21,031 nt of DNA, from positions 1-21,031 of IMG/VR virus record IMGVR_UViG_3300013132_000311; one strand, given 5' to 3'. A program made the position numbers and the translations under genes. This document shows positions 696 to 18,629 of the stretch, piece after piece; position 1 is the first letter of the stretch; each line of letters begins with the position of its first letter. This DNA is from a virus. The notes beneath the pieces are model-generated. The model worked only from the letters and a program-made list of their open reading frames with translations. It searched no databases and was not told the DNA's origin.

Positions 696-2132
696 CTATA
701 ATAAATTTTTACAATCGAACCAAAAGTTTTCAAATTCAGGAAACGTTTTTAATAAACTTGTTTCTCTTCTTAAATCATGCTCAGTCCAAAATAAATAAAA
801 ATTTTTCATAGCAGAATGTATATTAAATTTAGTGTCTAAAGAGATCCAATCTATCAACCTTTGTACTTTACTAATTTCAAAATCTTTAAACCCTTTATAT
901 TGATTATGAATAGTCTCTTTATTCAATTTCATAAATTCTATTGCTTTATATAACTCATCTAACAAATCTGGACGTAATTTTGGATTTAAAAAATCTGGTT
1001 CTATCAACTGAGGCACATCAAACCAAATCAATTGCCTATCTGTATTAAATGTTTTACGTAGTTCTAATATATTTTTCATATAATTGAAAAACCCAGTATA
1101 ACTTAAAACATTAAAAGTAATAATAAAGGTTAAACTATGTCTATTTGCATTTTTTAGATAGTCAGTAATATTTTGATATAGAGTTTTAAAACTCATACCA
1201 TTTCTAATATATTCGGCTTGTTCACCCCAACTGTCTAAACTACAAAATAACATAAAATGGTCTATAGAATGTTCATCAGTCATTTCTTTTAATTTTGACA
1301 TAAACTTATTCCACTGATCACCTGGGGGGCAACAATTACTGGTAATACTTAAATTTAAATCTTTTTTAGGATTATTTTTAATATAATCAAACATTTTAAA
1401 TGTATTTCTATCCATTAATGGCTCACCACCAGTCATTCTAAATGTTTGAAGTGTAGGATATATTTTAGGCAACCATTCCCAAAATGCTAGTAGATAAGGA
1501 TTATCTGGACTATTATTTGGTTGCATATCTTTACGCATCCATGTTGTATCATTATGTATTCGGTCTGATAAAATATATGGTCCATGCTTTTCTATTTCCT
1601 GCATCCAAGCAGTACTAAGATGTGGACTACAATAGCTACACTTGAAATTACAAGATTGATTAAAATTAATTTCTACATATCTAGGATTAGGGTTCCCTAA
1701 AAAACCTAATTTTCTTGCTTCTTCTATTAGTCCTGGAACATAAACATCCTTACTTCTATAAGCTCTGTCACTTAGTTGATTTCCACTATCTTCAATTTGC
1801 CAACAAAAATCACATTCTTTTGGGCGTTCTCCTTCAAGCATTAACTTTCTTTGACTTTTTTTATAATTTGTATTATGCAAAGCACTAACGTCTATTTTAA
1901 TTTCTTCAAGAGGAATTTTATGAGTAGATGGATGATAACAACTATGAGTTCTTCCAGTTGGTATATGCACACTGACATTGTACCATTTAGCAAGACAAAA
2001 ACTGGGACTTACTTGATTAATCTCTTTAAAAACTTTTTCAGAAGTAGTTAAATATTTTGATTCAAATTTTTCGTCGACTATTCTTGATTCGTCACCTCTT
2101 TGACTAAATTCATTATTTTTAAAATTGGTCAT
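696..2132 (-). CDS. Radical SAM protein, twitch/SPASM-like, 478 aa
   Basis: This is a complete radical SAM enzyme. It has the 4Fe-4S motif CNFKCSYC (Cys161, Cys165, Cys168), preceded by the strand YVEINFNQS, and then RMTGGEPLMDR (GGEP at 235-238), LSITSNCC (about 262-269) and LFCSLDSWGEQAEYIRNGMS. These are in the normal order for the SAM-binding barrel. Before the barrel lies an extra N-terminal region of about 150 residues with SCYHP (Cys65) and ECDFCW (Cys107, Cys110), which could bind an additional metal or cluster. Aromatic- and charge-rich sequence follows the barrel. Similar twitch-type radical SAM proteins are known from marine T4-like phages, usually beside glycosyltransferases. Upstream, on the minus strand, are ACTAAATA (2160-2167) and an AAGAAG sequence that could act as ribosome binding site. 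Substrate not known. Confidence 0.88.
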   Translation of the reverse strand: MTNFKNNEFSQRGDESRIVDEKFESKYLTTSEKVFKEINQVSPSFCLAKWYNVSVHIPTGRTHSCYHPSTHKIPLEEIKIDVSALHNTNYKKSQRKLMLEGERPKECDFCWQIEDSGNQLSDRAYRSKDVYVPGLIEEARKLGFLGNPNPRYVEINFNQSCNFKCSYCSPHLSTAWMQEIEKHGPYILSDRIHNDTTWMRKDMQPNNSPDNPYLLAFWEWLPKIYPTLQTFRMTGGEPLMDRNTFKMFDYIKNNPKKDLNLSITSNCCPPGDQWNKFMSKLKEMTDEHSIDHFMLFCSLDSWGEQAEYIRNGMSFKTLYQNITDYLKNANRHSLTFIITFNVLSYTGFFNYMKNILELRKTFNTDRQLIWFDVPQLIEPDFLNPKLRPDLLDELYKAIEFMKLNKETIHNQYKGFKDFEISKVQRLIDWISLDTKFNIHSAMKNFYLFWTEHDLRRETSLLKTFPEFENFWFDCKNLL

Positions 2133-4145: not shown

Positions 4146-4916
4146 ATGAGAATAGCATGGTCTGGGTTGGCAGACTCCAAATATTACCACTATATTGCAA
4201 AATATTGCATACCTTCTTGGAATAAGTTACCAGGCACCAAATACATTGTACATGATTCCAATGATATATTAGATTCTAATTTTAATATTGTAGATTGGGC
4301 ATATGCCTATAACCGATCAAACAAATTTACTACTTTTTGTAAAAGAACGAAACCAGTAAATTTCTGGCGTAAGATGCAAAGTCAAATATGGGCTCTTAAA
4401 AACTTAAAAAATTATGATTGGGTAGTTTTACTTGACACAGATGTTGAAATTTTAGATTTTAATGAGATAGAATTCAAAAAAGTCTTAGATGAAATTATAA
4501 AAAATAAAGTAATTTGGGCTACTGGGGAAAGTCAAAAACTTAAACTTGATGCCGGTCATATTATTGTTAATATGCGTGACTCTAGGCTAGAACAACTTAT
4601 ATTTGACTATGAAAATATTTGGGAAAGTGGAAAAATTTTTGAATTAGATAGGTACTATGACGGTAATGCTGTGGAAAGTTTACTGAAAACTAAATATCCA
4701 TCATATAAAATAAAAAACACTGATCATGGCGGTGGTTTACACACTTATTCTATTGGAACTGTACATTATGGTAGTAAAATACCTAAATTATTAAGAGCCT
4801 TACTACACAATACAACAAATTTTATGGTAGAAGACATCATAGAAAGGAAAAGCAGAGTAGTTGATAGTAAGGTGACAATTGAATTACTAACGAAAGAATT
4901 AAATGAAAGAAATTAG
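4146..4916 (+). CDS. Putative GT-A glycosyltransferase (DTD motif)
   Basis: This 256-aa protein has an N-terminal strand (MRIAWSGLADSKYYHYIAKY), then FWRKMQSQIWALKNLKNYDWVVLLDTDVEILDF (in two parts around residue 90), with Asp97-Thr-Asp99 as the likely donor-sugar/metal motif. WATGESQKLKLDAGHIIVNMRDS is typical of the acceptor-side loop, where glycosyltransferases keep an 'N-x-G-h-h-h' segment. GGGLHTYSIGTVHYG follows near the C-terminus. It lies six bases after the methyltransferase and overlaps the start of kdsA by 14 bases, so it probably belongs to the same operon. Sugar donor and acceptor unknown. Confidence 0.72.
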   Translation: MRIAWSGLADSKYYHYIAKYCIPSWNKLPGTKYIVHDSNDILDSNFNIVDWAYAYNRSNKFTTFCKRTKPVNFWRKMQSQIWALKNLKNYDWVVLLDTDVEILDFNEIEFKKVLDEIIKNKVIWATGESQKLKLDAGHIIVNMRDSRLEQLIFDYENIWESGKIFELDRYYDGNAVESLLKTKYPSYKIKNTDHGGGLHTYSIGTVHYGSKIPKLLRALLHNTTNFMVEDIIERKSRVVDSKVTIELLTKELNERN

Positions 4917-5730
4917 TATAAAACATATAAAATTGAGTAATAATTCACCAATAACTTTGATTGCAGGGCCTTGTCAAATAGAAAGTAGAGATCATGCCTA
5001 TCAAATAGCCGCTGAATTAGTAGACATTTGTAGAGAAGTAGGTATAGATTTAATTTTTAAGAGCAGTTTTGATAAGGCCAATAGATCAAGCGTCTATGGA
5101 CGTCGTGGAGTAGGCTTACATAGTGGTTTAAGCACACTTAATGAAATAAAAACTAGATTAGGTGTACCAGTACTAACAGATATACATGAAAAAGAACATG
5201 CTAAATTGGCAGAGGCTTATGAAATAGACGTAATACAAATTCCTGCGTTCCTTTGCCGTCAAACTGACCTACTCATAGCAGCAGGTGAGAGTGGATTGGC
5301 CATAAATGTGAAAAAAGGTCAATTTCTTGCTCCGCATGACATGAAAAACGTGGCAGAAAAGATAGCAAGCACTGGTAACGATAAAATTATGTTATGTGAA
5401 AGAGGATATACCCATGGATATAACAACTTGGTGGTTGATATGCGTAGTTTGCCTATTATGGCTAGGACTGAATATCCTGTTGTTTTCGATTGCACACATA
5501 GTGTTCAACAGCCTGGAGGATTGGGCACCAGTTCTGGCGGGGATCGCGGGATGGTCCCCTACCTTGCCCGAGCAGCAGTGGCCACCGGATGTCTAGCAGC
5601 AGTATTCGTTGAATGTCATGATGATCCAGACAATGCTCCTAGCGATGGACCCAACATGATTCATATGAAAGACATGAAAAAATTACTAAAAGACCTAAAA
5701 GCCATAGATGAACTGGTAAAAAGTCAATGA
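4903..5730 (+). CDS. kdsA: 3-deoxy-8-phosphooctulonate synthase (KdsA), metal-dependent type
   Basis: KdsA condenses phosphoenolpyruvate with arabinose-5-phosphate to Kdo-8-phosphate, the committed step towards the sugar Kdo of lipopolysaccharide and some capsules. At 275 aa it has the usual length. Recognisable motifs are LIAGPCQIESRDHA (residues 19-32), FKSSFDKANRSS (52-63), VPVLTDIHE, IQIPAFLCRQTDLL, GFTHGYNN-like RGYTHGYNNL, FDCTHSVQQPGG and FVECHDDPDNAPSDGPNM. Cys24, His199, Glu237 and Asp248 match the four metal ligands of the metal-dependent class (as in Aquifex KdsA), whereas the E. coli type has Asn in place of the Cys. A patch at about 5515-5605 is much richer in GC (67% over 5521-5580) than the rest. 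The last 4 bases overlap the next gene. Confidence 0.96.
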   Translation: MKEISIKHIKLSNNSPITLIAGPCQIESRDHAYQIAAELVDICREVGIDLIFKSSFDKANRSSVYGRRGVGLHSGLSTLNEIKTRLGVPVLTDIHEKEHAKLAEAYEIDVIQIPAFLCRQTDLLIAAGESGLAINVKKGQFLAPHDMKNVAEKIASTGNDKIMLCERGYTHGYNNLVVDMRSLPIMARTEYPVVFDCTHSVQQPGGLGTSSGGDRGMVPYLARAAVATGCLAAVFVECHDDPDNAPSDGPNMIHMKDMKKLLKDLKAIDELVKSQ

Positions 5731-8323: not shown

Positions 8324-9496
8324 ATGAAAACAATTGATAGCGTCATTGATGAACTTAACAATATAGGCTTCAATAACCTACATCCTAGCATACCTGCTAG
8401 AGATATAAAAATATTGAAAAATATTGCCAACCTAATGGTTAGTCCATCATACATTACCGAAAATCAAGGTCGACTGCTTCTTAAAATTTTTAACGAAAAT
8501 CTAGTACATTTAGATTTGGTCTATGATAACATACATTTCTATGTACAAAATCCTACGTGGAAAAATTCATTTAGGGTACAGGAAAAAATTAGGGAAGTTT
8601 TCATAGAAAATGTCAAAAATACGAATTTTCGCATTGTTATAAGATATAATTTTGATAAGGAAATTAAAAAAGTATTGGGAATCTTAAACAAAAAAATTGG
8701 AATTAGTGGATTTGGAGGAGATAATAAAACTCAACATTATACCTTAAATGAAAAAAACTTGATTACTGTATATGATTTGCTAAATCCACTAAAATTTCAC
8801 TTTTCTACTGAATTTTTAGACCTACACGAAAAGACTAAAAATATTGAATTAGAATCAACTTTACAAAAATATGAATTTGACAATTTTATAAAAGATAAAC
8901 CTTTTAGTAATTTAGAACAAGAAAGTGCCTTAGTAATTTTAGACCAAAAAATTCGATATCAGTATATTTTTACCCAAGAATTTGACAAAAATGTACAAAA
9001 TACATTAGTATATAAAATAGCCAGTAGAAACAATAATAAAATTTATTTGAGCAGTTTAACTACAGATTTTACTAGTCTAATTGAAAGTTTGAGATTTTTA
9101 AAAAGGTCAAAAATTTTAGTAATTTTTGATGATTTTAGAATAAATGAATGCTTAACGCATATTCATACTGTCAAAAATTCACTAAAGAATTTAAGAATAG
9201 ACAATGTTGGAATTTATTTTAGATTTGATAATAAAGGTGAAGGTGAAACTTTTAATAAAATCATATCTGAAAACAAATTTAATAAAAAATTAGATGCTAG
9301 TACTGAAATAGTTGGTATTAGTAATGGTAAAATGCCTAAATTTATCTTAAAAACTGATTGGTATCCAGATGCTGTTATTACTTTTACTAACAGTTTAAGA
9401 AATAATAAAACAGATGTGTATTGTAATGATTGCGATTTAATTGTATACTATACAGATGTAAAACCATTAATGTCGAACCTAGATGAAATCCTGTAA
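8324..9496 (+). CDS. Hypothetical protein, 390 aa, coupled to uvsW
   Basis: I do not recognise this protein. The N-terminal 90 residues are helical and charged (KILKNIANLMVSPSYITENQ, then GRLLLKIFNENLVHLDLVYD). The middle is Lys/Asn/Phe-rich. The C-terminal half alternates hydrophobic strands and helices: LRFLKRSKILVIFDDFRIN (about 263-281), VGIYFRF, DWYPDAVITFTNSL and CDLIVYYTD, which suggests a Rossmann- or RecA-like alpha/beta domain. No intact Walker A motif is seen. Its end overlaps the uvsW start by 14 bases and it stands first after a sigma-70-like promoter, so it probably works in DNA replication, recombination or repair with UvsW. No signal peptide or membrane segment. ATG 8324 follows AAGG by two bases, an unusually short distance for a ribosome binding site. 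Confidence 0.75.
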   Translation: MKTIDSVIDELNNIGFNNLHPSIPARDIKILKNIANLMVSPSYITENQGRLLLKIFNENLVHLDLVYDNIHFYVQNPTWKNSFRVQEKIREVFIENVKNTNFRIVIRYNFDKEIKKVLGILNKKIGISGFGGDNKTQHYTLNEKNLITVYDLLNPLKFHFSTEFLDLHEKTKNIELESTLQKYEFDNFIKDKPFSNLEQESALVILDQKIRYQYIFTQEFDKNVQNTLVYKIASRNNNKIYLSSLTTDFTSLIESLRFLKRSKILVIFDDFRINECLTHIHTVKNSLKNLRIDNVGIYFRFDNKGEGETFNKIISENKFNKKLDASTEIVGISNGKMPKFILKTDWYPDAVITFTNSLRNNKTDVYCNDCDLIVYYTDVKPLMSNLDEIL

Positions 9497-10949
9497 ATTA
9501 ATTATAAAAGATGAGGTAAACATAAAATTTGAGGGCTTGCCTTTAGAAGCACGTCGCAAGCTGGCCAATACCTTCAAATATGTATTACCCTACGCACGTT
9601 TCCAACCTGCTTACAAATTAGGACGTTGGGATGGCACTACTAGCCTCTTTGGGATAGGAGGGTCAGGCTACCTAACACACATAGAAAAGATACTGACTGT
9701 ATTAGATTCTATGGATATTGAAGTCACTGATATTGAAGATCATAGAAGCAACAAACAAATTACGTTTACACCAGTTACAGAAACATATTGGGCTGATCAG
9801 GGCAAGGTATGGCCCAAAGGACATCAACAAGAAGGTCAACCTATATTATTACGTGACTATCAAATAGATGCTATCAATACCTTCCTAGAACACCATCAAA
9901 GCCTACAAGAGATTGCTACTGGTGCTGGTAAAACTATTACTACAGCCACCTTAAGTCAACTGTGTGAACCATATGGTAGGACCATAACCATAGTACCAAA
10001 CAAGAGTTTAGTTGAACAAACTGAGGAAGATTTTCGCAATGTAGGATTAGATGTTGGTGTATATTATGGTGATCGTAAAGAGTTAGAATGTACCCATACA
10101 ATATGTACTTGGCAAAGCCTAAACATACTGGACAAAAAGAGTAAGAATGGTGAAGAAGATCAACTTACTTTGGCTGAATTTTTAGATGGAGTCGCCGCTG
10201 TAATAGTCGATGAAGTTCATATGGCCAAGGCAGAAGTATTGAAAAATCTGCTTACACGCAATCTAAACAATGCAGGTATACGTTGGGGATTAACTGGAAC
10301 TGTGCCCAAAGAACCTTATGAACATGAGCAAATCTTTGCCAGCATTGGTCCATTAGTTGGCGGTATTAAGGCCAGTGAACTACAGGAAAAAGGTGTACTA
10401 AGTAACTGCCACGTAAACATTGTACAACTTATTGACCTACCCGAATTTAAGAACTATGCAGAAGAATTAAAGTATCTTGTTACCGATGAAAACAGGATGA
10501 TCCATATTAGTAAATTCATTAAAAATGTAGCACTAAAAGGCAACACTCTAGTACTAGTAAATAGAATAGACACAGGCAAATTTATAGTAAATGAATTAGA
10601 AGGCAGCGTATTCATATCAGGCAATGTAAAGACAAAAGATAGAAAAGAAGAGTATGACGAAGTGGCAACGAGTCAAAATAAGGTCATCGTCGCAACCTAC
10701 GGTGTGGCGGCAGTTGGTATCAATATTCCTCGCATTTTTAATTTGGTTCTTATTGAGCCTGGCAAGTCCTTTGTTCGTGTTATACAATCGATTGGTAGGG
10801 GCATACGCAAGGCGGAAGACAAGGACTTTGTTGAAATCTGGGATATAACTAGCACCTGTAAGTTTAGCAAGCGCCATCTTACAGAACGTAAAAAATATTA
10901 TAAGGAAGCCCAATATCCATTCAGTATAGAAAAGGTGGATTGGCAATAA
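9483..10949 (+). CDS. uvsW: UvsW-type RNA-DNA/DNA helicase
   Basis: T4 UvsW is a superfamily 2 helicase that unwinds branched DNA and R-loops and shifts replication from origin-dependent to recombination-dependent initiation. This 488-aa protein has that family's length and layout. An N-terminal DNA-binding domain ends near residue 100 (RFQPAYKLGRWDGTTSLF at 39-56 is characteristic). Then come the Q-like LRDYQIDAI (123-131), Walker A ATGAGKT (145-151), DEVH (243-246), LTGT (270-273), FISGNVKTKDR, VATYGVAAVGINIP and motif VI QSIGRGIRK (435-443). It overlaps the upstream gene by 14 bases. The stretch 10655-10850, covering motifs V and VI, has higher GC and uses codons (CTT, GTT, CGC, GCG, TCC, TCG) that are rare in the first part of the gene. 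Confidence 0.95.
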   Translation: MKSCKLIIKDEVNIKFEGLPLEARRKLANTFKYVLPYARFQPAYKLGRWDGTTSLFGIGGSGYLTHIEKILTVLDSMDIEVTDIEDHRSNKQITFTPVTETYWADQGKVWPKGHQQEGQPILLRDYQIDAINTFLEHHQSLQEIATGAGKTITTATLSQLCEPYGRTITIVPNKSLVEQTEEDFRNVGLDVGVYYGDRKELECTHTICTWQSLNILDKKSKNGEEDQLTLAEFLDGVAAVIVDEVHMAKAEVLKNLLTRNLNNAGIRWGLTGTVPKEPYEHEQIFASIGPLVGGIKASELQEKGVLSNCHVNIVQLIDLPEFKNYAEELKYLVTDENRMIHISKFIKNVALKGNTLVLVNRIDTGKFIVNELEGSVFISGNVKTKDRKEEYDEVATSQNKVIVATYGVAAVGINIPRIFNLVLIEPGKSFVRVIQSIGRGIRKAEDKDFVEIWDITSTCKFSKRHLTERKKYYKEAQYPFSIEKVDWQ

Positions 10950-12463: not shown

Positions 12464-13143
12464 TGGATCAAGTACATATTTGTCCACATTGTCAAACTAA
12501 GTTTAGTAAAGAAAAAACTTTATTTGTTCATATGTGTGAACAAAAAAGACGACATCTTGCTAAAGGAGAACGTCATGTACAAATGGGCTTTCTAGCATTT
12601 GATAAATTTTATAAATTAGCACAAAAGTTTAATGGACAAAAGACTTATGATGAATTTGCCCGTAGCCCATACTATACCTCTTTTGTAAAATTTGGCAGTT
12701 TTCTACATAATGTAAACCCATTATACCCAGAAAAATTTATTGAGTATGTAGTTACAAGTGGTGTAAAATTAGATCATTGGTGTAAAGAAAGTTTATATTA
12801 TGAATATGTTTTACACTTAATTAAGCATGAAAGTGTAGAAACTGCGCTACAACGCAGTATAGCCACTATGATGGATTGGGCAGACTCTCATAATAGTATA
12901 TGGAATCATTATTTTCATTATGTTAGCACAAATAGGGTGACATTTGATATTAAAGACGGAAAGATAAGTCCCTGGCTACTGTTAAATAGTACTAGTGGTA
13001 AAACCCTTCTAAATCAACTAAATGATGAGCAATTATCCAATGTAGGAACTGTAATTGATCCCACATTTTGGATTGGTAAATTTCGTTCTAATGAAGAAGA
13101 TTTGGACTTAGTACGACAAGTTATAAAGGAAGGAAATCTATGA
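12463..13143 (+). CDS. Zinc-finger-containing conserved phage-like protein, 226 aa
   Basis: The N-terminus is a zinc-finger-like unit: CPHCQTKFSKEKTLFVHMC, with Cys7, Cys10, His23 and Cys25 (or His31) as ligands, followed by EQKRRHLAKGERHVQMGFLA. The remaining 180 residues are helical and aromatic (YDEFARSPYYTSFVKFGSFL, NPLYPEKFIEYVVTSGVKLD, TALQRSIATMMDWADSHNSI) and end with KDGKISPWLLLN and LDLVRQVIKEGNL. I associate this arrangement with an uncharacterised protein of marine T4-like phages. DNA or RNA binding is suggested by the finger and the basic stretch after it. It overlaps the preceding gene by one base and the following ATG by ATGA (13140-13143). Confidence 0.78.
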   Translation: MDQVHICPHCQTKFSKEKTLFVHMCEQKRRHLAKGERHVQMGFLAFDKFYKLAQKFNGQKTYDEFARSPYYTSFVKFGSFLHNVNPLYPEKFIEYVVTSGVKLDHWCKESLYYEYVLHLIKHESVETALQRSIATMMDWADSHNSIWNHYFHYVSTNRVTFDIKDGKISPWLLLNSTSGKTLLNQLNDEQLSNVGTVIDPTFWIGKFRSNEEDLDLVRQVIKEGNL

Positions 13144-13316
13144 GTACAGTGCCAAAAGAAGTAGAACTAAGTATGGAAGTTAGATTAGTTGAAGAAGAAA
13201 CTGCGGTGTATGTTAAAATTGAAGGATTTGATAATTTAGAAGATGCTGAAGAATATGCTGAGTATTTGGCTGAAAATTTGCCATTGTTACTATTCAACAG
13301 TGAGGTAAGACACTAA
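13140..13316 (+). CDS. Small acidic protein, 58 aa
   Basis: A short reading frame begins at ATG 13140, overlapping the stop of the gene before it (ATGA), and ends in TAA at 13314-13316, whose last base is the first of the next ATG (TAATG). The protein is strongly acidic: MSTVPKEVELSMEVRLVEEE, then TAVYVKIEGFDNLEDAEEYA, ending LAENLPLLLFNSEVRH. It has a strand-strand-helix pattern and no recognised motif. The exact fit between two coupled genes and the absence of any other gene in the 172 bases support it as real. Function unknown. Confidence 0.75.
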   Translation: MSTVPKEVELSMEVRLVEEETAVYVKIEGFDNLEDAEEYAEYLAENLPLLLFNSEVRH

Positions 13317-13882
13317 TGCCTGATATTGATATAGATTTTGCTGATCGTGAATCTGCTTTAAAAATCATAGAACATGTTAAAGCAAAGTTAGATAATAAGC
13401 ATCATAACACAGGAATATATGCTCAAAGCATACCATACGATCCTGTAACAAACATTGCTGGTATTGAATACAAACAAGCCGAACTGCGTGGATATTATAA
13501 AATAGACTTTCTAAACGTAGGAATCTATAAAGGTGTAAAAAACGAAGCACATTTAAACCAACTAATGGAGGCTGAACCACTATGGGAACTATTACTGCAA
13601 GACGAGTTTACGGATCTACTATTTCATTTGAAAGGGCATGGGACTATTCTGAGGAAGACCCAACCTACTTCCGTGGAACAATTAGCTGCCGTCCTCGCTA
13701 TGATCCGACCATCGAAGAGGCACTTAATTGGAAAAACTTGGCCCGAGATCTTGATGGAAGTTTGGACGATTCCAGAGAATGATGAGTATTATTTTAAAAA
13801 GCCACATGCTATAGCCTATGCTATGGCTGTGGCAGTACAGATGAATTTGATTTGTGAAAGTTTAAGTTACGATTATAGTTAA
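13316..13882 (+). CDS. Miniature DnaE-like (Pol III alpha-related) protein, 188 aa
   Basis: The protein opens with PDIDIDFADR (2-11), the palm motif of bacterial C-family polymerases that carries a catalytic aspartate. It also keeps GYYKIDFLNVGIYKGV (59-74), matching the 'V-K-x-D-F-L-G-L' element, and EYYFKKPHAIAYAMAVAV (157-174), matching the 'F-N-K-S-H-A-x-A-Y' element. DnaE proteins exceed 1,000 residues, so most of palm, fingers and the whole PHP domain are absent. It is therefore unlikely to be a working polymerase. I recall similar short proteins from marine T4-like phages, so it is probably a stable mini-protein and not a fresh deletion. Its 3' end overlaps the minus-strand gene 13879-14253 by 4 bases. 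A second open frame (13582-13782) lies inside it. Confidence 0.75.
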   Translation: MPDIDIDFADRESALKIIEHVKAKLDNKHHNTGIYAQSIPYDPVTNIAGIEYKQAELRGYYKIDFLNVGIYKGVKNEAHLNQLMEAEPLWELLLQDEFTDLLFHLKGHGTILRKTQPTSVEQLAAVLAMIRPSKRHLIGKTWPEILMEVWTIPENDEYYFKKPHAIAYAMAVAVQMNLICESLSYDYS

Positions 13883-14253
13883 ATTTTTCTAACCAACTCT
13901 ACACTTTTACGTTTGGCTCTTTTTAAACTAAGATTTAAAATATTAACTGTGGGGCCTAGGACAATTCTAACACCCTTGCTACTAAAAGTTTTTATACAAT
14001 ATTTGAATACATCTATTTCTGATTTAAGGAATATATTGATAGGTATAAGTCTATTGCTTTCCCACCACCAAGTTTCTCCCATGGTTAGAAACTGATTCTT
14101 TTCTTCAGGGGTTCTAATTGCATCAATGTCATAAAAACTGGTAACAAATTGATCTTGATTAATTATGATCCCCACATACTCCTGCTCACCGTAGTTTATG
14201 ACGCTGATAAAGGGTAATTGTTCTTTAGTAGTTTCTTTAAGCTTTTTAGCCAT
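13879..14253 (-). CDS. Conserved phage-like hypothetical protein, 124 aa
   Basis: A basic N-terminus (MAKKLKETTKEQLPFISVIN) leads into YGEQEYVGIIINQDQFVTSF and an acidic helix, then GETWWWESNRLIPINIFLKS, an aromatic-rich segment that looks strongly conserved, and a basic tail (LNLSLKRAKRKSVELVRKI). No catalytic motif, signal or membrane segment is seen. The pattern recalls a small protein of marine T4-like phages with unknown function. It lies opposite to its neighbours, meeting the DnaE-like gene tail-to-tail with a 4-base overlap. Its start codon touches the late promoter of the divergent gene, since TATAAATA begins on base 14253. Confidence 0.75.
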   Translation of the reverse strand: MAKKLKETTKEQLPFISVINYGEQEYVGIIINQDQFVTSFYDIDAIRTPEEKNQFLTMGETWWWESNRLIPINIFLKSEIDVFKYCIKTFSSKGVRIVLGPTVNILNLSLKRAKRKSVELVRKI

Positions 14254-15099: not shown

Positions 15100-16062
15100 A
15101 TGACCCTAATAAGTGATACTCTACAAACTTATCTGCCTTATAAACGTAAACATACCCCAAGCGGTTGGATCAGTTTCAATGCCGTTTGTTGTGATGATCG
15201 GCGTAATAGAGGTGGCTTCATAAGTGACGGCAATAGTATAAGTTATCACTGCTTTAATTGTGGGTTTAAAGCCAGTTGGCAACCTGGTAGAACAGTTAGT
15301 CAAAAACTTAGAAAATTATTCCAACTGCTCAGTGTCCCAGATGACGTGATATCAAAATTAACTATAGACGCACTACGTCATCGTGATGTATCCAATGATA
15401 AAATCACTTATTCAATACCTAAATTTGAACCTAGAGAATTACCTAGAGGATCTCTAGCCATTAATGACATTATCAATGATCCTCCAGATGACTTAATTCC
15501 AATACTAGAATATATATTAAGTCGCGGACTAACATTAGATGATTATGATTTTTATTGGACTCCTGAAGAAGGATTTAATAATAGATTGATTATTCCTTAT
15601 TACTATAAAGGTAGTATTGTAGGCTATACCGCACGTAGAATTGATGATGGAAAACCAAAATATCTAGCAGAACAACAACCAGGATATGTGTTTAATTTAG
15701 ATGCTCAAAATGATAATAGAAAATATGTTATAGTATGTGAAGGTCAATTTGATGCTATTAGTATTGGTGCTGTTAGTGTTAACGGTAGCGAAATTAGTGA
15801 GGGCCAAAGATTATTGATAAATCAATTACAACGTAAGGTCATTGTAGTTCCAGATAGAGATAAGGCAGGATTTAAAATGATAGATACTGCTTTAAGATAT
15901 GATTGGTCATTGAGTTTTCCACCTTGGGAAACTAATATAAAAGATATAAACGAATCTATTCTACACTATGGAAAAGTAAAAACATTAATAATGATTATTG
16001 ACTCAATTCAGACTAGTGAAGTTAAAGTAAAACTTAAGGAAAAAGAATGGTTAAAATATTAA
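15100..16062 (+). CDS. 61: DNA primase, T4 gp61-like
   Basis: The primase makes RNA primers for lagging-strand synthesis and works in a complex with the replicative helicase (gp41 in T4). At 320 aa it is close to T4 gp61 in length. The N-terminus has a zinc-site pattern: Cys30/Cys31 followed by DDRRNRGGF and SYHCFNCGFKASW (Cys51, Cys54). FNNRLIIPYYYKGSIVGYTA (159-178) corresponds to the strand pair before the TOPRIM fold. TOPRIM residues are VIVCEGQFDAISIG (Glu214), VVPDRDKAGF (Asp252, Asp254) and IKDINES (Asp282). It starts two bases after AAGG, behind a sigma-70-like promoter. Unlike in T4, where genes 61 and 41 are neighbours, two cargo genes separate it here from the helicase. Confidence 0.9.
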   Translation: MTLISDTLQTYLPYKRKHTPSGWISFNAVCCDDRRNRGGFISDGNSISYHCFNCGFKASWQPGRTVSQKLRKLFQLLSVPDDVISKLTIDALRHRDVSNDKITYSIPKFEPRELPRGSLAINDIINDPPDDLIPILEYILSRGLTLDDYDFYWTPEEGFNNRLIIPYYYKGSIVGYTARRIDDGKPKYLAEQQPGYVFNLDAQNDNRKYVIVCEGQFDAISIGAVSVNGSEISEGQRLLINQLQRKVIVVPDRDKAGFKMIDTALRYDWSLSFPPWETNIKDINESILHYGKVKTLIMIIDSIQTSEVKVKLKEKEWLKY

Positions 16063-16211: not shown

Positions 16212-17219
16212 ATGAACCTAATTGAAAAAATTCAGGAGAATAAAGACCCTGGATTGCATCCAGATGAAATAAATGGATTGGTTAATAAATTAAATGGTTA
16301 TGCTAAAATATATGAAAAGTTAACTAGAAACATTCAAGTAGAAGATCTATTACATGTGGATATTATGTATTATAGAAATAGATATGAAGATCTTTTGCCC
16401 TATGATTTTGATGCAACTAGAAAGCATTATATCTATTATGGATCACAAGAAGGTAGACATGCTAGTCCTTTTAGTACACGGGAATCATTCGGAGATTATG
16501 TGCAAAGTTACGTCAGCGCAAAAATATTAGAGATTGGACCGTTCACTAGACCTTTAGTAAAAGGATCTAATGTAAAATATGCAGATACATATGACACAGA
16601 TACTTTAAGACATAGAGCCACAAATTTTGGAATGAATCCAGATGAGGTATGTGATGTTCACTATGTTATACCTGAAATAAGTTTGACTGCTATAAAAGAT
16701 AAGTTTGATATTGTAGTTACCAGTCATAATATAGAACATCAACCAAATTTTGTTAAACATCTTAATGAAGTTTATGATTTATTGAACCCAGGCGGAAAAT
16801 TTTGTTTGGTAGTTCCAGATCATAGATTTTGCTTTGATGCTAATATGCCTTTGACAAATATAGGTGATATATTAGATGCATATTACAGTAACAGAAAACT
16901 TCATACTTTAAAAAACTTAGTACAACACTATACATATAAAGTACACAATGATGCTAAAGAACATTGGCAGTATTACAATAGTAATACTAGGAGTTTATAT
17001 CAACCTACTGATGCTATCAAAGTGATGAATACCTTAATTAACTATGCTAATGCAGATAAAGAATTTTATTTAGATGCACATGCTTGGTATTTTACTCCTT
17101 GGAATTTTAGTGACATTGTAAATTGTTTAATAAAATTGGAATTAATTAAATTTGATCGAATTCTTTGTAATGGCACAGTGGAAAACAATCAAGAATTTAC
17201 TGTTATATTGGAAAAATAA
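16212..17219 (+). CDS. SAM-dependent methyltransferase with extra N-terminal glycan-type domain, 335 aa
   Basis: The second half is a class I methyltransferase: KILEIGPFTRPLVKG (104-118; motif I in its 'E-I-G-P' form), YADTYDTD (123-130), DIVVTSHNIEHQPNFVKHLN (166-185) and LLNPGGKFCLVVPDHR (190-205). The N-terminal 90 residues contain DIMYYRNRYEDLL and ATRKHYIYYGSQEGRHASPF. This follows the 'Y-D ... H-Y-x-x-x-G-x-x-E-G-R-x-P' motif often fused to glycosyltransferases and methyltransferases of polysaccharide clusters. A sugar or glycolipid substrate is therefore likely. AAGG (16201-16204) lies 7 bases before ATG 16212. With the carbamoyltransferase remnant it forms a cargo insert between primase and helicase. 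Its stop abuts the helicase ATG at 17220. Confidence 0.83.
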   Translation: MNLIEKIQENKDPGLHPDEINGLVNKLNGYAKIYEKLTRNIQVEDLLHVDIMYYRNRYEDLLPYDFDATRKHYIYYGSQEGRHASPFSTRESFGDYVQSYVSAKILEIGPFTRPLVKGSNVKYADTYDTDTLRHRATNFGMNPDEVCDVHYVIPEISLTAIKDKFDIVVTSHNIEHQPNFVKHLNEVYDLLNPGGKFCLVVPDHRFCFDANMPLTNIGDILDAYYSNRKLHTLKNLVQHYTYKVHNDAKEHWQYYNSNTRSLYQPTDAIKVMNTLINYANADKEFYLDAHAWYFTPWNFSDIVNCLIKLELIKFDRILCNGTVENNQEFTVILEK

Positions 17220-18629
17220 ATGACTAGACAAAATGCTGACTATGGATATGATATTCAAAAAGTTTATTTAGAACTAATGCTTAACGATTCTCAAACATTT
17301 GTAAGGTGTCAAAGTATTTTTGATCATGAACTATTCGATCGTCGTTTACAAGTGACGGCCAAGTTTATTAATGATTATGTGGTAGAACATAATGTATTAC
17401 CCACATATGATATCGTTAATGCTGCTACTAGCACAGATTTAAAAGATCCTGGACAAATTAGAGACGAACATTATGATTGGCTACTTCAAGATTTTGAAAC
17501 TTTTATTAGACACAAAGGTCTTGAACGTGCTATAATTCATAGCGCAGACTTATTGGAAAAAGGTGAATACGGTCCTGTAGAAGATTTAATCAAGAAGGCA
17601 GTACAAATTGGTCTAACTAAGGACATGGGAACTGACTACTTTGAAGATCCTAGAGCAAGACTATTAAAGATCAAAGATAAAAATGGACAAGTTACTACAG
17701 GTTGGAAGGCACTTGACCAAAGATTATTCGGTGGATTTAATAGAGGTGAACTCAATATCTTTGCTGGTGGTAGTGGTGCAGGTAAAAGTTTATTCTTGGC
17801 CAACTTAGGATTGAATTGGGCTCAACAAGGACTTAACGCACTTTACATCACATTAGAACTTAGTGAAGAACTAGTAGGCTTAAGAATTGATAGTATGGTA
17901 TCAAATATATCTACTAAAGAAATCTTTAGACAAATTGATGAAGTTGAAATGAAGGTACGTGTACTAGGAAAGAAAAGTGGAAACTATCAAATAAAATACT
18001 TACCTAGTGGTAAAACTGCCAATGACATACGCAGTTATATGAAAGAGTATGAAGTAAAAACTGGAAATAAAATTGATGTATTACTAATTGATTACTTAGA
18101 CTTGTTGATGCCAATTAGTAGGAAAATTAGTAGTGAAAATTTATTTATTAAGGATAAGTTTGTTAGTGAAGAACTGAGAAATTTAGCTGTGGAAAAAAAT
18201 GTTGTATTAGTCACAGCAGCACAGTTAAACAGAGGTGCGGTAGAAGAAATTGAATTTGATCATAGTCATATCAGTGGTGGGCTTAGTAAAATTCAAACTG
18301 CTGATAATGTGTTCGGAATCTATACCAGTAGGCAAATGAGAGAAAATGGCAGATATCAAATACAACTTATGAAAACTCGTAGTAGTAGCGGTGTTGGTAC
18401 TAAAATTGATCTAGCATTTGACATGGATACTCTACGTATTCAGGACTTGGAAGAAGGTGATGCTCCAGAATATAAGAGTGGAAATAATGTATTAGAAAAC
18501 ATTAGACAGCGCAGCATGGCACAGCGTGATGACCCTACCCAAGGTCTTAGCGTGAAGAATAGTGAAGTTAAAGTGGCCAGTAACAAACTTCGTGACTTAC
18601 TCAACAACTTGAACACCCAAGATATCTAG
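17220..18629 (+). CDS. 41: Replicative DNA helicase, T4 gp41/DnaB-like
   Basis: This RecA-fold hexameric helicase unwinds DNA ahead of the replication fork and partners the primase. At 469 aa it matches T4 gp41 (475 aa). The N-terminal 130 residues are helical (DnaB-N-like). TGWKALDQRLFGGFNRGELN (160-179) leads to Walker A GGSGAGKS (183-190), YITLELSEELVGLRID (209-224), Walker B DVLLIDYLDLL (286-296), VTAAQLNRG (331-339) and KTRSSSGVGTKIDLAFD (385-401), which carries the basic residues of the arginine-finger region. The start is the ATG immediately after the stop of the methyltransferase, so translation is probably coupled. About 38 bases without a gene follow it. Confidence 0.93.
   Translation: MTRQNADYGYDIQKVYLELMLNDSQTFVRCQSIFDHELFDRRLQVTAKFINDYVVEHNVLPTYDIVNAATSTDLKDPGQIRDEHYDWLLQDFETFIRHKGLERAIIHSADLLEKGEYGPVEDLIKKAVQIGLTKDMGTDYFEDPRARLLKIKDKNGQVTTGWKALDQRLFGGFNRGELNIFAGGSGAGKSLFLANLGLNWAQQGLNALYITLELSEELVGLRIDSMVSNISTKEIFRQIDEVEMKVRVLGKKSGNYQIKYLPSGKTANDIRSYMKEYEVKTGNKIDVLLIDYLDLLMPISRKISSENLFIKDKFVSEELRNLAVEKNVVLVTAAQLNRGAVEEIEFDHSHISGGLSKIQTADNVFGIYTSRQMRENGRYQIQLMKTRSSSGVGTKIDLAFDMDTLRIQDLEEGDAPEYKSGNNVLENIRQRSMAQRDDPTQGLSVKNSEVKVASNKLRDLLNNLNTQDI

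Follow-up and report, generated by a model that had tools for sequence, protein, structure and literature searches.

A short DnaE-like protein of jumbo phages as the probable half of a split C-family DNA polymerase

Background

In the 21,031-nucleotide stretch of viral DNA analysed here (the window), an intact open reading frame of 188 codons encodes a 188-residue protein, which we call B, that carries motifs of the alpha subunit of bacterial DNA polymerase III (DnaE), and it raises the question of what so small a piece of a bacterial replicase could do for a phage. The original prediction took it for an isolated fragment that has been put to another, non-catalytic use, for instance as a decoy or blocker of host Pol III. 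That view found no support, the catalytic residues being invariant and the rest of the palm being encoded by a second gene, which we call A. We consider it likely that B is one half of a split C-family polymerase, A and B together most likely forming a heterodimeric auxiliary polymerase beside the family B replicase of the phage.

A split, minimal Pol III alpha was described in group 2.2 jumbo phages in 2021 (Iyer et al., Viruses 13:63, PMC7824862), and the available part of that paper suggests that the split enzyme cooperates with the family B polymerase in one strand or in repair. The B protein of the window is an uncultivated member of this system already in print, and the catalytic, two-piece reading of A and B agrees with the view taken in that part of the paper. 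Relative to it, the present analysis adds the exact junction between the two pieces, the loss of the thumb and of the RRAMGKK segment, an invariant steric gate and the complementary structure matches of the two halves. A search of the open-licence literature returned no experimental work on the split polymerase.

Other reports touch on single pieces of the system. The report on phage CBB speaks of a 172-aa protein as a truncated Pol III alpha (PMC5259590), and this protein matches gene A in length and annotation; from phage Atu_ph07 one alpha piece was reported (PMC6102473). In their available parts, these two papers each mention one alpha piece and no second half. The PHROG labels of the two families, 11778 for B and 11127 for A, are also silent on being halves of one domain, near-full-length as the profile matches are. 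A further report deals with marine jumbo phages (Weinheimer and Aylward 2022). In the part of that report available, PF07733 is unique to the marine jumbo-phage cluster PGC_A, where it occurs in 51.9% of the phages and is the sole PGC_A-unique gene that reaches at least half of them; it is the same Pfam domain that is matched by A, and that part mentions neither a split nor a second half (PMC9123017). We infer that the PF07733 genes of PGC_A are gene A.

Results

The three polymerase motifs noticed at the outset are present in one intact frame, MPDIDIDFADR at residues 1-11, KIDFLNVGIYKGV at residues 62-74 and YYFKKPHAIAYAM at residues 158-170 (Table 1). The catalytic aspartates of E. coli DnaE are D401, D403 and D555, and H760 is its presumed steric gate, according to the available part of the source (PMC8485763). 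By alignment, D64 of B, in KIDF, corresponds to D555 and H164 to the steric-gate histidine, and the HNTG stretch stands immediately ahead of the second palm part. From 99 ORF hits, 76 distinct B sequences were obtained and aligned, the window's own and eight from named phages among them, and the residues D3, D5, D7, H30, G33, K62, D64, I130, R131, P132, K134, H164 and Y168 were invariant in all 76. The original prediction had the other catalytic aspartates missing, which proved wrong, D3, D5 and D64 all being kept throughout this alignment. DIDID, KxD and HxxxYA are also kept in the divergent phages SCTP-2 and CM1, which were viewed separately. The absence of a PHP domain was correctly called: the Pfam scan of B gave no PHP match, and its only match was a sub-threshold one to DNA_pol3_finger. 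As a candidate clamp-binding tail, an end of the [SG][YV]x[YFH] type was found in 53 of the 76 sequences, but RaK2-type members are without it and the candidate was dropped.

Table 1. Coordinates of protein B, its motifs and the genes discussed with it (window positions, except for the exonuclease genes, which are given by phage locus)
Feature	Coordinates	Strand	Basis or remark
UvsW-type helicase, same replication/recombination cluster	9483..10949	+	domain/PHROG matches
58-aa ORF directly upstream of B	13140..13316	+	no Pfam match
Protein B, C-terminal (metal- and template-binding) half of the probable split minimal DNA polymerase III alpha	13316..13882	+	PHROG 11778, AlphaFold2
MPDIDIDF, catalytic aspartates D3 and D5 (plus D7)	13316..13339	+	aligns to MPDIDTDF from Taq alpha residue 461
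HNTG, H30 to G33, counterpart of Rhodococcus DnaE GVHACAV (histidine-containing stretch)	13403..13414	+	profile alignment
KIDFLN, third catalytic aspartate D64 with K62	13499..13516	+	aligned by profile with bacterial DnaE KMDFLG
IRPSK, residues 130-134, counterpart of the DnaE fingers RPG turn	13703..13717	+	profile alignments
YYFKKPHAIAYAM, residues 158-170, fingers helix	13787..13825	+	aligns with FNKSHAAxY helix
Convergent small gene, phrog_11637, unknown function	13879..14253	-	overlaps B 3' end tail to tail by 4 bases
DnaG/gp61-type primase	15100..16062	+	domain/PHROG matches
DnaB/gp41-type replicative helicase	17220..18629	+	domain/PHROG matches
DnaQ-like exonuclease genes, five phage loci	L086 4721-5542; L085 4802-5620; L087 4923-5729; L089 4796-5599; L088 12865-13458		PF00929

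That B is a DnaE-derived fragment, as had been predicted, was borne out by profile and structure comparisons alike. B matches PHROG 11778, labelled 'DNA polymerase', at E 1.4e-63, with residues 3-182 aligned to positions 8-194 of the 197 of the profile, and the whole-DnaE profile phrog_405 weakly, at E 3e-6. It also has the features of a PHROG 11778 unit: a short stand-alone ORF that starts at the DIDID strand or just before it, the metal-binding aspartates and T4-like replication neighbours. Against solved chains, the profile of the B family is colinear with Pol III alpha at weak scores (E 1.6e-4 at best, and 0.039 for one unrelated chain); the resemblance of B to DnaE is above chance and is one of homology.

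An AlphaFold2 model of B (68 rows, pLDDT 85.3) was compared with the PDB, where rows 1-14 of 17 were all Pol III alpha or PolC, with Z from 5.0 to 8.1, and the next row was unrelated, with Z 2.4. The comparison with the DnaE palm and fingers that had been proposed as a check thus brought up no unrelated fold that was better. The whole chain of the model matches E. coli alpha 400-784, Taq alpha 461-838 and PolC 971-1358. For a predicted model set against a mixed list a Z near 8 is middling, and the weight lies on the match being colinear and on the list being uniform.

A search for the distribution of B in phages had been suggested as well, and it revealed 63 phage records by tblastn, with a best E of 1e-58 and all below 60% identity. 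The B-bearing phages that are listed, 60 of these 63, are nearly all jumbo phages, among them RaK2, 121Q, PBECO4, PA5oct, Paride, Atu_ph07, Phosso, CBB and GAP32, and the phages that carry B have hosts from several genera; three B-bearing records, of 86-110 kb, are shorter and probably incomplete. Relatives of B are encoded in at least 547 metagenomic stretches of IMG/VR, of which the best 80 were kept. Cellular or prophage copies were sought by a scan of 84,980 species genomes with two short patterns, and among the matches listed there were 6, all of them weak (27-34% identity), at loci that in all 6 cases hold open frames of 1160-1535 aa with GRGS, PDIDID, KxDxLG and KSH motifs.

The missing part of the palm came from a search with phrog_405 over 16 B-bearing records. 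The profile recognised the B ORF in 14 of the 16, at profile positions of about 577-809, the B proteins of PBECO4 and Vibrio phage 2.275 being too diverged for it, and in 11 of the 16 it also matched a second small ORF, A, at positions of about 340-437 and with a length of 164-213 codons from stop to stop. The protein A is of about 170 aa and belongs to PHROG 11127, again labelled DNA polymerase, with residues 3-168 aligned to positions 9-171 of 171. All three A proteins that were scanned match Pfam DNA_pol3_alpha with 35.1-46.5 bits against a cut-off of 23.9, the match ending at position 94-95 of the 260 of the profile, and none of these three has a PHP match. Among 81 distinct A sequences, obtained from 94 ORF hits, GxGRGS is present in all 81, with G134, G136, R137, G138 and S139 invariant. 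With A as the query, IMG/VR yielded at least 591 relatives, of which the best 80 were kept; the window's own 21 kb fragment contains no gene A.

The ends of the two proteins meet at one place in DnaE. At the A/B junction, bacterial DnaE runs from the GPGRGS segment to 'ERFL' and then, a few residues on, to 'MPDIDID'. In 93 of the 94 A ORFs, the protein ends within a few residues of [ED]F[LMF], after the GxGRGS segment, the commonest ending being LDWQEFLR followed by a stop. The 76 aligned B sequences, of 186-213 residues, start at the DIDID strand or at most some 20 residues before it. The split point therefore lies where A stops at DnaE 'ERFL' and B begins at DnaE 'MPDIDIDF'. The structure of A tells the same story, in that the model of an A protein from IMG/VR (L132; 73 rows, pLDDT 91.4) gave Pol III alpha or PolC in the first 15 of 17 rows, with Z from 7.4 to 11.9 and the next row at Z 2.5, and the part of it that matches, from about residue 60-70 up to 168, corresponds to E. 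coli 276-393, Taq 293-455 and PolC 817-965. On the same solved polymerases, the ranges matched by A and by B adjoin without overlap. The best Foldseek E-values are weak for both models, at 0.039 and 0.027.

The profiles of PHROGs 7513, 13169 and 11165 stop a little past the GRGS segment or start not far ahead of it, which may mean that these families are further divided or PHP-less forms of DnaE in other phages.

The two genes were found together in most of the phage records. Of the B-bearing phage records, 60 were listed (the other 3 of the 63 being left out), and all but one of these, a record of 109.5 kb, have A (59 of 60); a profile search found A in 10 of 10 named phage records with B. 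In IMG/VR the same kind of search found A in 3 of 12 contigs with B, the nine without it being one of 280 kb and eight of 89-160 kb, and B in one of the 15 contigs that carry A, where the 14 without B measure 38-111 kb. These contigs may be fragments, and would then carry little weight either way on the co-occurrence of A and B. The 280 kb contig is a possible counter-example to the pairing. This contig (G003, locus L041; 280,019 bases) encodes B and a family B polymerase and has no detectable A, being either an incomplete contig or a case of true loss.

A and B could in principle be the remains of a normal, full-length dnaE that a frameshift, an intein or an assembly error has split, as genes annotated DnaE or Pol III alpha exist in other phages and the profiles phrog_11165, phrog_13169 and phrog_7513 resemble DnaE that is divided in other ways. 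We regard this as extremely improbable. The same short ORFs with the same split point recur throughout the distinct sequences, 76 of B and 81 of A, and in the 13 records where the map distance was measured A lies 15-224 kb away from B. Among the fetched loci, with the best 80 kept from each viral scan, neither a single ORF nor a locus was matched by the two profiles together, as an A-B fusion would be, and no PDxDxD was found in the downstream sequence of the 94 A ORFs, which extends for up to 3 kb and is shorter for some of them; a rare fusion could have escaped at this depth. The search with phrog_405 over the 16 records also brought up nothing further except two weak, short stretches. The hidden full-length dnaE that the original prediction had named as its own refutation is thus very unlikely, with 76 copies that are all of 186-213 residues and share the same start region.

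To see what the two pieces lack, we placed them by profile alignment in the frame of six bacterial DnaE ORFs taken from genome contigs. A 97-167 falls on positions 694-764 of this frame (probability 92.8%), B 1-13 on 771-783 (78.4%) and B 28-133 on 893-1021 (94.9%). KSHAAGY starts at about 1137, and since the alignment of the last helix of B is weak alone (5.5%), its placement there rests on the motif and on the structure match. B has no counterpart of the thumb (about 784-892 of the reference frame), nor of some 100 residues of the fingers (about 1022-1120) that include RRAMGKK, and a motif like RRAMGKK was found in none of the 76 B sequences and, by a loose pattern, in one of the 81 A sequences. 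In Taq alpha, the arginines of RRAMGKK presumably contact the incoming nucleotide. With the thumb and the RRAMGKK fingers lost, the normal chemistry or processivity of DnaE cannot be assumed for A and B.

Compared to DnaE and PolC, A and B together keep the palm order GRGS - PDIDIDF - KxDFL, the RP turn and the KxHAxAY fingers helix, all colinear by sequence and by predicted structure, and differ in that no PHP, thumb, beta-binding or OB region was found in them, that their fingers are shortened and that they form two chains instead of one. What defines a full C-family DNA polymerase, namely a PHP domain, a palm with GRGS and three aspartates on one chain, and a thumb with full fingers, is not found in either protein; the palm elements are divided, with the aspartates on B and GRGS on A. 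Across the 16 records phrog_405 matched no stretch outside about 340-809, so that at this sensitivity the PHP, beta-binding and OB regions apparently have no further pieces.

This bears on the idea that B is a mimic of host Pol III alpha, one that would sequester the clamp, tau or DNA, or block the host replisome. A fold derived from DnaE and encoded by a phage would suit such a mimic. However, neither B nor the three A proteins scanned gave a PHP match, and together with the absence of the phrog_405 ends this means that the host-contacting ends of DnaE are apparently absent, whereas the part that is conserved is the active site. We hold a mimic to be very unlikely. With the catalytic residues invariant and the rest of the palm in a co-occurring gene, a two-piece catalytic enzyme fits better.

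The replication-operon setting that had been noted for B is real, with a UvsW-type helicase, a primase and a DnaB-type helicase around it. The genes in the window follow the order UvsW-type helicase, B, primase, DnaB-type helicase (Table 1), and nine annotated jumbo phages were viewed beside it. In 8 of the 9 the replicative helicase lies about 2-4 kb downstream of B, being absent there in XacN1; in PBECO4 the downstream counterpart is an AAA ATPase immediately after the primase; and five of the nine have an annotated helicase on the upstream side of B. Directly upstream of B in the window, the TAA of the 58-aa ORF overlaps the ATG of B (TAATG), and because of this overlap the translation of the two is probably coupled; a short ORF is annotated at the same place in other jumbo phages, as a counterpart by position. 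A small convergent gene also follows B directly in 8 of the 9 annotated jumbo phages, overlapping it in 7, with XacN1 as the exception, again as a counterpart by position. In RaK2, Paride and PBECO4, the three examined, A lies a few genes ahead of a clamp-loader gene. Because B is derived from DnaE and sits in a phage replication operon, a replisome role for it is plausible.

A gene with a methyltransferase domain (16212-17219, +) separates the primase from the DnaB-type helicase in the window; where a separate primase is annotated, in five relatives, it is followed immediately by the helicase. Elsewhere in the window, a full-length gene of the DAHP_synth_1 family (4903-5730, +; Pfam E 5.4e-68) looks like a KDO-8-phosphate synthase. 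Near it are a glycosyltransferase family 8 gene, a gene with a methyltransferase domain and a weak radical SAM match, the last a sub-threshold one (E 1.3e-5) at 699-2132 (-), upstream of the sugar-related genes.

A DnaQ-like exonuclease (PF00929) is encoded in the B gene cluster of RaK2, PBECO4, Vibrio phage 2.275, XaC1 and XacN1 (Table 1) and is a possible proofreading partner of the split polymerase. PF00929 gave no match to the one ORF tested for each of Phosso, Atu_ph07 and Paride, and no exonuclease match was seen among those of the window's ORFs that were scanned, which were a part of them.

A gene for a family B polymerase is present in 12 of 16 B-bearing records, the 4 without it being contigs of 142-160 kb, and the catalytic motif Y[GA]DTDS is present in 9 of 9 of the family B polymerase ORFs inspected, some of which are cut at the end of the fetched stretch. 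A family A polymerase, considered as the phage replicase, had no match above the cut-off in any of the 16 records.

Discussion

A rival reading is that B, with or without A, is no longer a polymerase and serves as a structural or regulatory part of the replisome, which would hold primer-template or nucleotides and bring the family B polymerase, the primase or the clamp loader into position. The lack of any counterpart of the thumb and of the RRAMGKK fingers would be in keeping with such a part, as would the family B polymerase with its intact catalytic motif and the place of the A and B genes among those for primase, helicase and clamp loader. A purely structural role would not need the metal-binding aspartates, GRGS and the steric-gate histidine, however, and all of these are invariant. 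On balance we find such a structural or regulatory part unlikely, and prefer the reading of A and B as the two halves of one C-family polymerase.

In the mechanism that we propose for these two halves, B would supply the three metal-binding aspartates, the steric-gate histidine and the reduced fingers, and A would supply the palm segment with the GxGRGS nucleotide-binding motif. A and B most likely pair non-covalently at a natural loop of DnaE, the one between its 'ERFL' helix and its 'MPDIDID' strand, and the pair would rebuild one palm of the pol-beta type that binds dNTP-Mg2+. It would act next to the family B (gp43-like) replicase that the phage itself encodes, probably in an auxiliary capacity, and its task is probably short synthesis, be it primer extension, one strand, or repair and gap filling. 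The binding of A to B, catalysis by the pair and the product it would synthesise we infer from homology, from conservation and from the co-occurrence of the two genes. With a family B replicase at hand, and with the thumb and part of the fingers gone, the pair would be expected to be a poorly processive auxiliary enzyme and not the main replicase.

A bolder version of the split polymerase can also be envisioned, where the active site is divided over two chains, GRGS on one and the aspartates on the other, and becomes active only when the two meet. Without the thumb and the RRAMGKK fingers, it would have turned into an enzyme that differs from every C-family polymerase known, perhaps a nucleotidyltransferase for primer extension or short patches (possibly template-relaxed) that serves the genome ends, the Okazaki fragments or the repair of jumbo phages. 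This version is possible, and we put it forward tentatively, as somewhat doubtful.

Conclusions

The split polymerase is widespread, and cultivated phages, RaK2, 121Q and Paride among them, make it open to experiment. Should the pair be active, A and B would amount to a C-family polymerase core of very small size, with an active site that nature has divided between two genes, and would show the minimum of the bacterial replicase fold. An active pair would also give the jumbo phages a second polymerase.
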